Below are positions 9,628 through 15,955 of a DNA stretch of 64,000 bases, one piece after another. A model generated the notes under the pieces. It ran no database searches. It saw nothing but the letters and a program-made list of their open reading frames with translations, and had not been told where the DNA came from. This stretch comes from Paracoccaceae bacterium (GTDB lineage Bacteria > Pseudomonadota > Alphaproteobacteria > Rhodobacterales > Rhodobacteraceae), in NCBI GenBank assembly GCA_024642725.1, contig JAHEAO010000004.1, forward strand, positions 1-64,000, written 5' to 3'. Every line of letters starts with the position of its first letter. The first letter of the stretch is position 1. The position numbers and the translations under genes are program-made.

Positions 9628-9703
9628 TCTGCTGGTCCTTGTTCGTCCTGCCTCAGTGATATAGGGCCCGTTGCGGCAGAACAACCGCCGAGGACCGTCC
9701 GTC

Positions 9704-10969
9704 ATGAGCATTCTGGGTCAGGCCCCCCGTCAGGCAGCTTTGCAGTTGCTGAACGCCGTGACCGGCGAAAAGGCGATGCTGTCCGATCTTCTGCCCAAGG
9801 CGCTTGACCGGCTTCCCGCAGAGGAACGCGCGCGCGCTGCACGTCTGGCGATCACCACTTTGCGCTGGATGGACCGCGCCGACCGCATGCTGGGCCCCCA
9901 TCTGCGCCAGAGACCGCCCGAGCCGACGCTGAATGCGCTGCGCCTTGGCACGGTCGAATTATGTGTCGACGGCGCGGCAAGCCACGGGGTCGTCAATGCT
10001 ATGGTTGCCCTGGTCAAGGCCGACCCCCGGACCGTTCGGACTGCCGGTCTGGTCAATGCGGTGCTGCGCAAAGTCGCGGCCGGGATCGACAAATGGCAGG
10101 CTCTGCCGGTTCCGCAACTACCGAAATGGTTGCGCAAGCAACTGATCGCGGATTACGGCAAGGCGACGGTTGCAGAGATTGAAAAGGCCCATGCCGCAGG
10201 CCCCGCGCTGGACCTGACGGTCAAAGAAGACGCGGCGGGCTGGGCTGAACGGTTGGGCGGGCAGGTTTTATCGACCGGATCCGTTCGTCTGAATGCCCAG
10301 GCTCAGGTGACCGCGCTGGCTGGATATGCAGAGGGCGGCTGGTGGGTTCAGGATGCGGCGGCGACGCTTCCCGCAAGGGCGCTGGCCGCGCAGCCGGGGG
10401 AAAGGGTGCTGGACCTGTGCGCAGCACCCGGCGGCAAGACGTTGCAGCTTGCGGCGACGGGTGCCGATGTGACCGCGCTGGACATTTCCGGCCCCCGCAT
10501 GGCGCGGGTCGAAGAGAACCTGAAGCGGACGGGTCTGTCCGCGCATCTGGTCACCACCGATGCGCTGCACTATGCCGCCGATCCGTTTGATGCGATCCTG
10601 CTGGATGCGCCCTGTTCTGCCACCGGAACGATCCGGCGGCATCCCGACCTGGTCTATGCCAAGGACAGCAGCGATTTTCCCGCGCTCTTCGCGCTACAGG
10701 CGGCGATGATCGACAAGGCGCTTTCGTTGCTGAAGCCTGGAGGCCGGCTTGTCTACAGCACCTGCAGCCTTCTGATCGACGAGGGTGAAGAACAGGTGCG
10801 CGACGCGCTTGCCCGCCATCCGGCTCTGTCCGTGGACGTTGCGGTGCTGCGCCTGCCGGGGATAGATCCCGGATGGATTTCCGAGACGGGCCTGCGCACT
10901 TTTCCGCATTACATGGCGGAGCTTGGCGGCATGGACGGGTTTTTCGTCACGCTGTTCCGCAAGCCCTAG
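9704..10969 (+). CDS. rsmB: RsmB/NOP family 16S rRNA m5C methyltransferase
   Basis: This SAM-dependent enzyme of the RsmB type methylates C5 of a cytosine in 16S rRNA. The 421-residue protein starts with a NusB-like helical domain (about residues 1-140). The Rossmann methyltransferase part has motif I, LCAAPGGKTLQLA; motif IV, LLDAPCSATGTIRRHPD; and motif VI, YSTCSL. The two catalytic cysteines (PC and TC) are present. ATG 9704 follows a GAGGA box; an upstream in-frame TTG at 9671 is less likely. The 3' end overlaps the convergent ABC permease gene by 4 bp. Confidence 0.92.
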   Translation: MSILGQAPRQAALQLLNAVTGEKAMLSDLLPKALDRLPAEERARAARLAITTLRWMDRADRMLGPHLRQRPPEPTLNALRLGTVELCVDGAASHGVVNAMVALVKADPRTVRTAGLVNAVLRKVAAGIDKWQALPVPQLPKWLRKQLIADYGKATVAEIEKAHAAGPALDLTVKEDAAGWAERLGGQVLSTGSVRLNAQAQVTALAGYAEGGWWVQDAAATLPARALAAQPGERVLDLCAAPGGKTLQLAATGADVTALDISGPRMARVEENLKRTGLSAHLVTTDALHYAADPFDAILLDAPCSATGTIRRHPDLVYAKDSSDFPALFALQAAMIDKALSLLKPGGRLVYSTCSLLIDEGEEQVRDALARHPALSVDVAVLRLPGIDPGWISETGLRTFPHYMAELGGMDGFFVTLFRKP

Positions 10970-12099
10970 TCCAGCGTTTGCCGGTAACGGCGCAGGGCGA
11001 TGACCACGACCACCAACATGATGATGCTAATGGCCAGCATGTCGCCCGAAATGTCCGGCAGGGCGGCCCCTTTCAGCATCACCTTGCGCGTCAGACGCAG
11101 GAAATGCGTGGCCGGAATCGTTGTGCCGATCACCTGCGCCCAACCCGGCATTCCTGCAAACGGGAACATGAACCCTGACAACAGGATTGTCGGGAGCAAG
11201 GTGAAGAAAGATATCTGCATTGCCTGCATCTGAGATTTGGCGACTGTTGAGATCAGGAACCCAAGTGCCAGATTGACGATGATGTAAAGATTGAAGCCCA
11301 GAAAGAAGGCCAGCCGGCTGCCGATGAACGGGACATCAAAGAGGAACCGCGCCGCGATCAGAAAGACGAAGGTCTGCACGTAGCCGACGAGCACATAAGG
11401 AATGATCTTGCCCAGCATCACTTCGGCCGGGCGGACCGGGGTTGCGATCAGCGCTTCCATCGTGCCTTTCTCGGTTTCGCGCACGATGGCGACCGCAGTG
11501 ATCATCACCATTGTCATCGACAAGATGATGGCCAGAAGGCCGGGCACGATATTGGTCGATGTCTTGCCTTCGGCATTGTACTGGCGGTGCACCGTGATGC
11601 TGAAGGGTGGCGGCGCGCCGGCGGTGTATTGCAGCGGTCCGGTCAGTACATCGGCAATCGCGGTGTCGATGATACCGGACATTGCCGCGACCGCGCCGCT
11701 GGCGGCTGCCGGATCAGAGGCATCAGCGGACAAAAGAATGTCCGGGTTCAGCCCGCGCACGACGTCGCGTTCAAAGTTGGGCGGCACCACCAGAACAAAA
11801 TTCGCAGAGCCTTCGCGCAGCGCGCGGTCGCCTTCTTGCTGGCTGGTGACGATGCCAATGAAGTCGAAGTAGTCCGAGGTCTGCATTCCCATCACGACGG
11901 CCCGCGCGATTGGTCCGTCGTCTGCCATTTCAACAAGCGTCGGCAGGTGCTTGGGGTCTGAATTGATCGCGAAGCCGAACAGCAAAAGTTGCATGATCGG
12001 AATCCCGATCATCATGCCGAAGGTCACGCGGTCGCGCCGCATCTGCACGAATTCCTTGAACAGGACCGCTCCGAATCGCGCGAAGGAGAACAGGTTCAT
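10966..12099 (-). CDS. ABC-2 type transporter permease
   Basis: The 377-residue permease has one N-terminal membrane helix, a large periplasmic domain (about residues 40-175), and five to six C-terminal helices including NIVPGLLAIILSMTMVMITAVAIVRETEKGTMEALIATPVRP, the ABC-2 signature region seen in YbhS/YbhR and YhhJ. With the upstream ATPase and HlyD adaptor it forms a tripartite export pump that could reach the outer membrane through a TolC-type channel encoded elsewhere. It is the last gene of the four-gene operon, overlapping the ATPase gene by 4 bp. The substrate is unknown; drugs or other toxic small molecules are likely by analogy. Confidence 0.9.
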   Translation of the reverse strand: MNLFSFARFGAVLFKEFVQMRRDRVTFGMMIGIPIMQLLLFGFAINSDPKHLPTLVEMADDGPIARAVVMGMQTSDYFDFIGIVTSQQEGDRALREGSANFVLVVPPNFERDVVRGLNPDILLSADASDPAAASGAVAAMSGIIDTAIADVLTGPLQYTAGAPPPFSITVHRQYNAEGKTSTNIVPGLLAIILSMTMVMITAVAIVRETEKGTMEALIATPVRPAEVMLGKIIPYVLVGYVQTFVFLIAARFLFDVPFIGSRLAFFLGFNLYIIVNLALGFLISTVAKSQMQAMQISFFTLLPTILLSGFMFPFAGMPGWAQVIGTTIPATHFLRLTRKVMLKGAALPDISGDMLAISIIMLVVVVIALRRYRQTLD

Positions 12100-13046
12100 C
12101 CCGGCACCGCCGGGGTCAGAAAGTTGTCAGTGGCACCCGCCATCAGGTAGATGAACGCTTCTTCCAGTTCGGCGTCCTTCTTCTGCCATTTGTGGGTCTT
12201 GCGCTTCTGCTGCTCTGCTGCGACCCGGTCGAGCGCCTTGGCGTTCGTGCCAGAGACATGCAGAACCGCGCCGAAACGTGCCACCTGGTCGACCCCTTCA
12301 GTCCTGCGCAGTTCGGCCTCCAACTTCGAGATTTCCGGCCCTTCGACACGCCATGTCGTAAGCCCGATGATCCGCGGAATCTCGCGGGCCGGGCCCGAGA
12401 TCAGCTTTTTCCCATATGCGATATAGGCGATGTAGTCGCACTGGATCGCTTCATCCATGTAGTGGGTCGACACAAGCACAGTGACGCCGGCGGCCGAAAG
12501 CCGCCTTATCTCGTCCCAGAAGTCCCGCCGAGCCTTCGGATCTACACCGGCGGTTGGTTCGTCCAGAAGCAGCAGCTGCGGATCGTGGAGCAGGCAGGCC
12601 GCCAGCGACAGACGTTGTTTCCAGCCACCCGAAAGCGTCCCGGCCAGCTGGTCCGCTCGATCCGAAAGTCCAAGGTCCGCAAGCGCTTTCTGAACCTTGG
12701 AACGGCGGTCCTTCATCCGGTACATTCGGGCCATGAAATCAAGGTTCTCGCGGATGGTCAGATCTTCATAAAGCGAAAAGCGTTGGGTCATGTAGCCGAC
12801 ATGTTCCTTGATCTGCTGCGGTTCGGTCAGAATGTCATAGCCAAGGCACTGGCCGGACCCGCCATCGGGGATCAGGAGGCCGCACATCATCCGGATTGTC
12901 GTGGTCTTGCCGCTACCGTTGGGACCGAGAAAACCGTAGATCGCGCCTTTGGGCACCTCCATGTCGAAACTGTCTACCACGGTCCGGTCCCCGAAACGCT
13001 TGGTCAGGCCGCTGACCGCGATTGCTAGTTCGGCCTCCGTCGTCAT
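12096..13046 (-). CDS. ABC transporter ATP-binding protein (export type)
   Basis: The 316-residue ATPase drives the neighbouring ABC-2 permease. The Walker A is GPNGSGKTTTIRMM (about residues 39-52), the signature is LSGGWKQRLSLAACLL, and the Walker B is LLLLDEPTAGVDP. A tail of about 90 residues after the nucleotide-binding domain is typical of YbhF-like and DrrA-like exporters. Its start and stop each overlap the adjacent operon genes by 4 bp, indicating translational coupling. Confidence 0.93.
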   Translation of the reverse strand: MTTEAELAIAVSGLTKRFGDRTVVDSFDMEVPKGAIYGFLGPNGSGKTTTIRMMCGLLIPDGGSGQCLGYDILTEPQQIKEHVGYMTQRFSLYEDLTIRENLDFMARMYRMKDRRSKVQKALADLGLSDRADQLAGTLSGGWKQRLSLAACLLHDPQLLLLDEPTAGVDPKARRDFWDEIRRLSAAGVTVLVSTHYMDEAIQCDYIAYIAYGKKLISGPAREIPRIIGLTTWRVEGPEISKLEAELRRTEGVDQVARFGAVLHVSGTNAKALDRVAAEQQKRKTHKWQKKDAELEEAFIYLMAGATDNFLTPAVPG

Positions 13047-13993
13047 GGCAGCATTCGCAGCGTGATCGGCTGGCCGGGCAGGACGCCACTGGCACCCTCC
13101 AGCCGGGCTTCAGCACGAAACACAAGCCGGGCGCGTTCGTCGCGGCTGTACAGGATCGGCGGTGTGTGTTGCGGGCTTGACGACATCCGCGTGATCATTG
13201 CGGTCAGCCCTTCGGGGCATCCGTCGCAGGACACCGCCAGCCGGTCTCCGACTGAAAAGGTCGCGCGTTCAGGTTCGGGCACAAAGAGGATCGCCTTCAA
13301 CCGATCCGGTTGATAGAGCGAAATGACCGGCGTTCCGGTTGCTGCAACCTCACCGACATCGAAGTAGATGCGATCGACAAGCCCATTGACGGGGGCCGAC
13401 AGGATGCGATTGTCCAGCGCTGATTGCGCCCGGTCAACCTCTGCCCGCGCGCCTTGCAGCGTCGCTTCCGCAGCCAGTTGCTGTGCATTCCGCGCAGGCA
13501 GTTCGGCAACCGCAAGCTGGGCGCGAAGCTGCGCCACCTGCGCATCCGCCGACTGGACCCGGGCGCGGTCGGTGTCCACCTGGGCCGGCGGCACGAGCCC
13601 CTTCGCCAGAAGTTGCAGCGACCGGTCGAGCGTCAGCTGTGCCAGATGCTGATCGGCTTCCGCGTTGGCGACAGAGGCACGGATGACCTCGATCTCGGCA
13701 TCGCGGCTGCCGGTCATCAGATTGTCGAGATTGGCTTGCGCGACTGCAACGTTCGCCTCAGCCGCGTGCAGGGCGGCGATTTCGGCGGTTTCGTCCAGAA
13801 ATACCAGCTGCTGGTCCGCTGAAACGGCCTGTCCTTCGCTGGCGTCGATGGAGGTGATCCGGCCGGGGCTCGAGGGCGCGACGTAAAGGTAATCGGCTTC
13901 GACATAGCCGTTGTAAGAAGGGTCGGGCGCCATGCCCCAACCTGGGATCACGGCGGCAATGATCGCCGCCAACCATGCCGGCAAATCGCTCAT
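13043..13993 (-). CDS. HlyD/EmrA-family periplasmic adaptor of an ABC exporter
   Basis: The 316-residue membrane-fusion protein has a short N-terminal hydrophobic anchor (WLAAIIAAVIPGW), then a lipoyl-like half-motif with the GYVEADYLYVAPSSPGRITSIDASEGQAVSADQQLVFLDE segment. A long coiled-coil hairpin rich in Ala/Gln/Leu (about residues 70-185) and a beta-barrel with ILSAPVNGLVDRIYFDVGEVAATGTPVISLY follow. It should bridge the inner-membrane pump and an outer-membrane channel. It closely resembles YbhG/YhiI-type adaptors encoded beside ABC-2 exporters. It is the second gene of the operon, starting 4 bp inside the TetR gene. Confidence 0.9.
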   Translation of the reverse strand: MSDLPAWLAAIIAAVIPGWGMAPDPSYNGYVEADYLYVAPSSPGRITSIDASEGQAVSADQQLVFLDETAEIAALHAAEANVAVAQANLDNLMTGSRDAEIEVIRASVANAEADQHLAQLTLDRSLQLLAKGLVPPAQVDTDRARVQSADAQVAQLRAQLAVAELPARNAQQLAAEATLQGARAEVDRAQSALDNRILSAPVNGLVDRIYFDVGEVAATGTPVISLYQPDRLKAILFVPEPERATFSVGDRLAVSCDGCPEGLTAMITRMSSSPQHTPPILYSRDERARLVFRAEARLEGASGVLPGQPITLRMLP

Positions 13994-14628
13994 GGGTTTG
14001 TCTCCGGTTCCAAACCTGCAAAGAGAATCGTCAGGTGGTTTTCAATCAGCCGTTCAAGGTTCAGACCGTCAGAGGGCTCAATACCGAAAACCTCGGCAAG
14101 CATGAGATGCATCAGCAGCGGTCCCATGATGCTGCGCACCGTCAGTTCCGGATCGACCTTGCGGATGTGCCCGCCCTCGACACCCTGTCGCATTAGCGAT
14201 GTCAGCGCGGGGATCGCGCGATCCAGAACTTCGTCGCGATACATCTGGGCAATTTCGGGGGCGCTCACGGCCTCACGCAGGACAAGTTTGGGAACGGCCA
14301 GCGCTGCTTCGCTGCCAAGCTTTCCCGCGATCATGTTCAGGAACTGGCGGATCACCGGGCGGGGGTCGCCCCGGTAGGTGGCGATCATCGAAATTGCGGC
14401 GTCCGCGATCGGTGCGACGGCGCGGTGCACCAAGCCTTCCAGAAGGGCCTTCTTGGACGGAAAGTAAAGGTAGACCGACCCTTTGGACAGGCCGGCATGG
14501 CGCGCGATCTGTTCGACGGATGTTGCTGCATAGCCCTGCGCAGCAAACAGGGCAACGGCGGCGTCCAGAACCTCGTCCGGTCGCGCCTCGGCCCTTCTGC
14601 GGAATTTGGGTTTGGGATCAGATGTCAT
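13990..14628 (-). CDS. TetR/AcrR-family repressor of the efflux operon
   Basis: The 212-residue regulator has a TetR-type HTH (VLDAAVALFAAQGYAATSVEQIARHAGLSKGSVYLYFPSKKALLEGLV, about residues 20-67) and a helical ligand-binding C-terminal domain. It is the first gene of the operon with the HlyD adaptor, ATPase and permease. A perfect palindrome lies 6 bp upstream of its ATG, which strongly suggests that it represses itself and the pump genes and is released by a pump substrate. The divergent side faces the 3' end of the MFS gene, so the operator serves only this operon. Confidence 0.92.
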   Translation of the reverse strand: MTSDPKPKFRRRAEARPDEVLDAAVALFAAQGYAATSVEQIARHAGLSKGSVYLYFPSKKALLEGLVHRAVAPIADAAISMIATYRGDPRPVIRQFLNMIAGKLGSEAALAVPKLVLREAVSAPEIAQMYRDEVLDRAIPALTSLMRQGVEGGHIRKVDPELTVRSIMGPLLMHLMLAEVFGIEPSDGLNLERLIENHLTILFAGLEPETNP

Positions 14629-14634
14629 TTTCCT

Positions 14635-14660
14635 TAAATAACTGACCAGTCAGTTATTTA
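14635..14660. promoter_or_regulatory. Perfect palindromic operator for the TetR repressor
   Basis: Two perfectly complementary 12-bp arms, TAAATAACTGAC and GTCAGTTATTTA, are separated by CA. The core TGACCAGTCA resembles known TetR-family operators. It sits just before the TetR start codon, where a bound repressor would block transcription of the whole operon. Confidence 0.8.
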
Positions 14661-14710
14661 CAAGAGCGCTTGAAAAACCGAGCCCATTTCAAGGCAAAGT
14701 GATCTGGGTA

Positions 14711-15955
14711 TTAAGCGGCGAGGGGGGTGGACATCGGCCGTTCCCGGATCGGAAGGTGCACGATTGCCGAAAACGCACCGACACCGACGCCGACCCACCA
14801 GACGGCGGTATAGGTGCCGTAAAGGTCGTAGAGCCGCCCCCCCAGCCAGATGCCAAGGAAGCTGCCCAGCTGGTGCGACAGGAAGACAACGCCGTAAAGC
14901 GTTCCCATATAGCGCAGCCCGTAGATATGCGCGACGAGACCTGCCGTAAGCGGCACGGTTGCAAGCCACATGGCGCCCATGGAGACGGAAAAGAGAACCA
15001 CTGTCATCGGCGTGATCGGGGTCAGGATAAAGGCAGCGGCCACGATGGTGCGGCCAAGGTAGATCGAGGCCAGCAGGTATTTCTTCGTATATCGTTTGCC
15101 GAGGTATCCCGCTGTAAGACTGCCGGCGATATTGGCCAGCCCGATCAGAGAAATGGATATCGCACCCAGCGCCGAGGTTGTTCCGACCCCCAGAGACGCA
15201 AGGGTTCCGGAGGGGTCGATCGCGCCGCACATCTCTGTCACCATCGCGGGAAAATGCGCGGTGATGAAGCCCAACTGATAGCCGCAGGAAAAGAAGCCAA
15301 GGAAGATCAGCGCATAGCTCGGATCGCGAAAAGCCTGCATCAGGACCCGACCCATCGAAGCTTCAAGCTCTGCCTGGCTTGCGGTTTTGGGCGCGCGCAT
15401 CATTGGCAGGGTCAGCACGGTTGCAAGGATCGCTGCGGCGAAGATCAGGAAAACGCTCTGCCAGGACATGAACCCCATAAGCCATTCGGCGACGGGCGCG
15501 CCAATGACCTGCCCGGCAGACCCGGCGGCGGTGACGATTGCCAGCGACATCGACCGGTTCTCATCCGAACTCGCCCGGCCAACCACGGCCAGAATCACAC
15601 CAAGTCCGGTTCCCGCGACACCAAATCCGACGAGGATTTCCAGAAACTGGTGCTGTCCCGGGGTGACAGCGTAAGAGGACAGGATCAGACCGGCGGCGTA
15701 TGTGATCGCCCCTAGGAAGATGGATTTCCGGTCTCCGATCTTCTCTGCCAAGGCCGCAAACAAGGGCTGGCCAAATCCCCATGCAAGGCTCTGGATCGCG
15801 ATTGCCATCGAGAAATCGGCCCGCAGCCAGCCGAATTCCTCGGCAATCGGAATCTGAAAGACGCCGAACGAGCCACGGATCGCAAAGCTGATCATGATAA
15901 TAAAGCAACCGACCAAGAGGACCGGAGTAAAAAGGCCGCCGCGCACGTCTGACAT
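14711..15955 (-). CDS. Major facilitator superfamily transporter
   Basis: A 414-residue, 12-helix MFS carrier with the A-like loop AALAEKIGDRKSIFLG between helices 2 and 3 and GYLGKRYTKKYLLA between helices 8 and 9. It belongs to the oxalate/formate-antiporter-like and monocarboxylate-transporter-like branch by overall look; the substrate cannot be read. AGGAGA precedes the ATG. It ends about 50 bp from the TetR operator and is transcribed on the same strand, upstream of the efflux operon, but the operator suggests a separate transcription unit downstream. Confidence 0.85.
   Translation of the reverse strand: MSDVRGGLFTPVLLVGCFIIMISFAIRGSFGVFQIPIAEEFGWLRADFSMAIAIQSLAWGFGQPLFAALAEKIGDRKSIFLGAITYAAGLILSSYAVTPGQHQFLEILVGFGVAGTGLGVILAVVGRASSDENRSMSLAIVTAAGSAGQVIGAPVAEWLMGFMSWQSVFLIFAAAILATVLTLPMMRAPKTASQAELEASMGRVLMQAFRDPSYALIFLGFFSCGYQLGFITAHFPAMVTEMCGAIDPSGTLASLGVGTTSALGAISISLIGLANIAGSLTAGYLGKRYTKKYLLASIYLGRTIVAAAFILTPITPMTVVLFSVSMGAMWLATVPLTAGLVAHIYGLRYMGTLYGVVFLSHQLGSFLGIWLGGRLYDLYGTYTAVWWVGVGVGAFSAIVHLPIRERPMSTPLAA

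Follow-up and report, generated by a model that had tools for sequence, protein, structure and literature searches.

A palindromic operator conserved ahead of a TetR-HlyD-ABC export operon in Alphaproteobacteria is the likely control site of its own repressor

The 26-bp palindrome at positions 14635 to 14660 (minus strand) of the window, by which we mean the whole 64-kb stretch of DNA analysed here, is almost certainly the binding site of the TetR-family repressor whose gene it precedes, and it recurs in front of the same export operon across the Alphaproteobacteria. In the full account that we favour, and which we consider very likely to be right, the palindrome would be a combined operator and promoter through which TetR represses its own operon until an inducer releases it, the pump would then export, and the repressor mRNA would start without a leader. 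Regulation of this kind is ordinary and here well supported, and it leaves the general picture of TetR-controlled exporters unchanged.

The four genes of the operon all lie on the minus strand. The first encodes a TetR-family repressor of 212 aa (13990 to 14628; TetR_N, 2.5e-19) whose N-terminal helix-turn-helix scores 69.2 bits with PF00440, for which the cut-off is 24. It is followed by an HlyD/YbhG-like periplasmic adaptor of 316 aa (13043 to 13993; HlyD_3, 7.7e-13; PRK03598, 4.7e-33, below cut-off), by an ABC ATPase of 316 aa with a single nucleotide-binding domain, or NBD (12096 to 13046; ABC_tran, 2.1e-32), and by an ABC-2 permease of 377 aa with RbbA-like sequence (10966 to 12099; ABC2_membrane_3, 5.1e-47; RbbA C-terminal part, 3.8e-64, below cut-off). 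The initial annotation had read a four-gene TetR-HlyD-ABC ATPase-permease operon here, each gene overlapping the next by 4 bp, and both the reading frames and the Pfam matches confirm it. Since one operon encodes an adaptor of the HlyD type together with an ABC ATPase and a permease of the ABC-2 type, the system has the gene content of an MFP-ABC tripartite exporter. A converging frame (9671 to 10969) meets the far end of the operon, and on its 5′ side an MFS gene on the same strand (14711 to 15955) has its stop at 14711, 50 bp from the palindrome; the encoded transporter is L-lactate transporter-like, with a model score below the cut-off. We considered the MFS gene as part of the unit and rejected it, since an MFS match adjoins TetR in none of the 21 relatives described below. 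Read-through from this gene into the operon is possible, and a terminator-like site was not found between the two.

Inverted-repeat detection gave the palindrome as TAAATAACTGAC CA GTCAGTTATTTA, that is, two arms of 12 nt (14635 to 14646 and 14649 to 14660) that are 100% complementary across a 2-nt gap, which is the perfect 12+2+12 arrangement with a CA spacer that had been claimed. Its position six bases 5′ of the TetR gene also stands, the gap comprising 14629 to 14634 and the frame 13990 to 14628. Perfect 12-bp arms with a spacer of 0 to 5 nt occur at three places in the window (14635, 27195 and 439). When up to three mismatches are allowed, the 16-bp core is found five times in the window against an expectation of 1.4 ± 1.3, and the exact core is found there at the 14635-14660 site only. 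The conserved core of the operator spans 14639 to 14656 (TAACTGACNNGTCAGTTA); the TetR start codon lies 10 nt past it and a strong Shine-Dalgarno sequence is absent. Of 20 clade sites, only 9 keep complementarity at the outermost aligned pair, -4/21, and only 10 at the next, -3/20, which points to a conserved operator of about 18 to 22 bp and to a perfect 26 bp that is partly peculiar to the source genome.

Relatives of the repressor with 49 to 72% identity were taken from 198 genomes of the family (10) and from a contig collection (13), and removal of two duplicates (L017 = L048 and L020 = L053, judged inter alia by identical upstream sequence) left 21. Matches at 31% identity or less were kept out of this set; six distant matches (L102 to L107) have no HlyD-ABC downstream, and in a seventh (L108) the TetR hit is absent. 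The core TAACTGACNNGTCAGTTA stands before the TetR start with at least 14 of 16 bases in 19 of the 21 relatives, and HlyD and ABC genes lie immediately downstream in 20. One of the two exceptions, L097, has its half-sites six apart instead of two. The other, L101 (also L158; 49% identity), reaches 9/16 at best, so that the site is absent, and it is also the sole relative in which HlyD and ABC genes do not follow TetR; site and pump are thus missing together. Flanking columns are low in information across 20 clade sites, and the conservation of the core therefore does not come from close relatedness.

The same arrangement extends to a class-wide set of 25 homologs with 31 to 50% identity, drawn from 385 genomes of the class, in which the core is found at 14/16 or better in 20 and at 12/16 or better in 24. 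Among 1075 control windows of 288 bp taken elsewhere in the same loci, none reached 13/16 or more and six reached 12/16. HlyD and ABC genes directly follow TetR in 23 of these 25 homologs; in the other two the contig ends too early (L130) or the pump is absent (L133), and L133 also has the weakest site of the set (11/16). After the downstream side had been fetched again for 24 of the homologs (all except L130), a permease was found in 20, the contig stopped short in three, and L156 was without a pump. The repressor conforms to the TetR family in that a palindromic site adjoins its gene and has been conserved along with it. The initial annotation had proposed a self-regulated export operon and had left it to the TetR-HlyD-ABC loci of relatives whether the palindrome recurs or is missing from all of them; it recurs, and that it does so ahead of this operon throughout the class supports the proposal as far as sequence comparison can.

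We scanned genomes with an 18-mer pattern, allowing at most one mismatch. In the family, 9 of 198 genomes have a match, in all nine cases at a TetR of this operon type, and in the class 16 of 385 do, the match lying at a TetR-HlyD locus in 14. A sample of the phylum gave matches in 20 of 398 genomes, ten of them alphaproteobacterial and ten not. Nine of the former are at TetR-HlyD and the tenth (G833) is at a TetR, HlyD being absent from the sequence examined, while one of the latter (G887) is at TetR-HlyD and the remaining nine look like chance. The G887 locus (L191), which is outside the class, has a perfect operator core before its TetR-HlyD pair, and this suggests transfer or a wider spread of the operator. 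A reversed control pattern was commoner in the family than the real one (27 against 9 of 198 genomes), so the raw counts show no enrichment and the telling evidence is the location of the real matches. When each alphaproteobacterial genome with a match is counted once, 27 of 30 have it at TetR-HlyD (the others are G205, G323 and G833), and the motif would thus predict, across the Alphaproteobacteria, pumps controlled by this TetR subfamily.

These scans also bear on whether the site is bound by some other regulator, or whether this TetR is a global one with many targets. TGAC-type palindromes do serve other TetR proteins, for example Thermus SbtR, whose site is given as TGACYRNNYRGTCA (PMC4948773), and the source genome contains five other TetR-like matches to the TetR protein. 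Yet the site co-occurs with the TetR of the operon, and the source genome, in an assembly that is 98.95% complete, has a single 18-mer match at one mismatch or fewer and no second site, so that we find both versions very unlikely. The same genome holds 15 further sites when the 16-mer is allowed two mismatches; among the nine examined, eight are inside reading frames and one is a terminator-like hairpin, so that the search for a wider regulon in the source genome found none. The palindrome is probably the sole operator of its TetR there.

The palindrome might alternatively act as an RNA hairpin, either an attenuator or a terminator of the upstream MFS gene, and not as a DNA operator. It can be folded as RNA and sits between the MFS stop (14711) and the TetR start, and a second perfect 16-bp core at C15:36138-36153 (L007:1501-1516), between two sox-like frames, belongs to a longer hairpin with a run of T's after it and is probably a terminator. 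We nevertheless regard an RNA role as extremely improbable, because the folding energy of the palindrome is ordinary (z = -1.05; 26 of 200 shuffles equal it), a terminator scan found nothing at its position, the site persists in relatives that have no MFS match beside TetR (0 of 21), and it is the exact letters that are conserved and not the pairing alone.

Read as the operator of TetR, the palindrome also has the paired arm changes that would be expected for a dimer site. In a set of 42 sites (L097, L101, L109, L110 and L133 excluded), several arm pairs show symmetric double changes; the pair -2/19 is complementary in 39 of 42 sites with four double changes, and 1 of 500 shuffles was as good, a comparison in which kinship is uncorrected. 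In the repressors themselves, the recognition-helix region keeps an (S/T)KG..YLYF-like motif in most members. The half-sites TGAC...GTCA are shared with the operators described for Thermus SbtR and TTHB023 (PMC4948773, PMC7022988), whose regulons differ from the operon found here. In the SbtR operator, TGAC and GTCA are six bases apart, whereas the gap here is two bases in nearly all sites and six in L097, L109 and L110 (ACTGAC-N6-GTCAGT). The N6 of these three loci is close to the Thermus SbtR spacing, and the recognition helices are similar.

The promoter is apparently built into this switch. A putative -35-like hexamer, TTGTAA (14658 to 14663, minus strand), has its TTG (14661 to 14663) just outside the palindrome, abutting the left arm, and a putative -10-like hexamer, TATTTA (14635 to 14640, minus strand), lies 17 nt past it in the right arm. 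The latter is weak, with 3/6 matches to TATAAT, and a consensus promoter scan returned nothing at the operator region. Of the 21 aligned clade sites, 20 have the TTG at position -7 relative to the core and L094 has it one nt further out, a mirror copy on the right side being absent, and in most sites the right arm contains a TANTNA-type hexamer 17 nt past the -35-like one. The spacing of TTG and ATG was analysed in 21 of 22 sequences (the window and its 21 relatives, L101 excluded), and in 18 of these 21 an in-frame ATG lies 9 to 11 nt past the core, the exceptions being L056, L049 and L058.

As a rule, transcription starts about 7 nt past the -10, which places the predicted start on the A of the TetR ATG, and from this spacing and the missing Shine-Dalgarno sequence the tetR mRNA is probably leaderless in the clade of the window. 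For the latter point we analysed 18 of the 22 sequences, excluding L056, L049 and L058, where the ATG is not at the fixed place, and L101, where the site is absent. A Shine-Dalgarno energy of -4.5 kcal/mol or lower was found at 0/18 TetR starts, 14/17 HlyD starts, 2/17 ABC starts and 13/17 permease starts, and since the ABC starts are also without it, its absence alone is no proof of a leaderless mRNA. Leaderless mRNAs are common in the alphaproteobacterial class (PMC4117421, PMC3616915), with 375 described in Caulobacter (PMC4117421) and 171 in S. meliloti (PMC3616915), where promoters are reported in which the TTG is conserved but the -10 only poorly so (PMC3616915). The proposed tetR transcript resembles them in having its AUG at the first base, but differs in that this is deduced here from spacing only.

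Control could also operate as proposed on an mRNA with a normal or short leader, the fixed TTG-to-ATG distance then reflecting another constraint, such as a second factor or a TetR that blocks ribosome access; this is possible, although we doubt it. In its favour, other class members have a TTGAC further upstream and three clade members are off the TTG-ATG spacing. On the other hand, most of the 21 have TTG, hexamer and ATG spaced as in a leaderless promoter, without a Shine-Dalgarno sequence, and L097 keeps the TTG-to-ATG distance unchanged despite its differently spaced half-sites. The clearest leaderless-promoter arrangement that we saw is in L110, where TTGTAC is followed by an 18-nt spacer filled by the operator and by a perfect TATAAT, with the ATG five nt beyond.

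Outside the clade, the TTG at -7 is found in 3 of 25 homologs, and several have a TTGAC at -27 to -30 instead, which would put the -10 in the left arm and leave a short leader. The operator covers the core promoter in either register, and occlusion is therefore the simplest reading of repression. We are evenly divided on the broader idea that these loci form a class-wide, single-target module of regulator and pump, in which the operator is the promoter spacer and the repressor mRNA is leaderless. If so, a block of about 38 bp would hold the -35, the operator, the -10, the transcription start and the start codon, and the register of the promoter would have moved from lineage to lineage (the start being on the ATG in the clade of the window and inside the operator elsewhere) while the operator stayed.

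In the mechanism that we propose, a TetR dimer would bind TAACTGACNNGTCAGTTA and, with the -35-like TTG right beside the left arm and the -10-like hexamer within the right one, would thereby exclude RNA polymerase and silence tetR together with the HlyD, ABC and permease genes. TetR would be released by a small molecule that is probably itself a pump substrate, transcription would begin on the A of the ATG in the clade of the window, probably giving a leaderless mRNA, and the adaptor, the one-NBD ATPase and the permease, presumably as homo-oligomers, would export the molecule, with a TolC encoded elsewhere probably serving as the outer membrane partner. The search for TolC-type genes elsewhere that the initial annotation had recommended did find two candidates, neither in the operon: a TolC-family gene on contig C22 that exceeds the model cut-off, and a weaker match on C64. 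The whole would be a compact one-site sensor-exporter unit.

For the pump, the closest known systems are YbhGFSR and RbbA. The adaptor matches the YbhG model (PRK03598) best, whereas the ATPase and the permease come closest to parts of RbbA; none of the three reaches the equivalog cut-off. In the E. coli cecR (ybiH)-ybhGFSR operon the genes come in the same order, from TetR through the HlyD-type adaptor and the ABC ATPase to the ABC-2 permease, with a palindrome just 5′ of the regulator gene, and its pump proteins show identities of 30% (adaptor), 38-45% (ATPase) and 24-28% (permease) to those found here. However, YbhGFSR has two NBDs in YbhF and two permeases, whereas the present operon has one of each, and all complete operons that we saw encode a single ATPase, which has a single NBD, and a single permease to match. 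Orthology of the repressor to CecR, suggested by the gene order, was rejected: BLASTP gave no hit between the two at E ≤ 1, the CecR model scored 23.2 bits against a cut-off of 365, and the core of the E. coli palindrome (TTAATCAATCATTTGATTAA) differs from that of the operator here. RbbA (YhiH) resembles the pump in that parts of its model match the ATPase (3.4e-74) and the permease (3.8e-64), but these matches reach 250 and 217 of the 1050 bits of the cut-off and the two are separate proteins in this operon. The pump is thus YbhGFS/RbbA-like but has a single NBD and a single permease, and by the tests used its TetR does not qualify as an ortholog of CecR. For YbhFSR, links to the transport of tetracycline and of Na+/Li+ and to sensitivity to cefoperazone and chloramphenicol are on record (PMC7190983).

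A search of the PDB returned general TetR relatives only, and a search of the open-licence PMC literature by operator sequence and text did not find a paper describing the operator. Related ATPases are also encoded on plasmids, among them those of Paracoccus and Niveispirillum, with 54-61% identity in the best 15 of 21 records. In the E. coli cecR locus (L088), an in-frame ATG lies 2 nt past the palindrome, preceding the start codon of the annotation by four codons. The orphan TetR relative at L158:7925-8551, which is without pump or operator, lies just 5′ of a frame that we take to be DEAD-box helicase-like; E. coli cecR adjoins rhlE, an RNA helicase gene, a likeness that may be coincidence.
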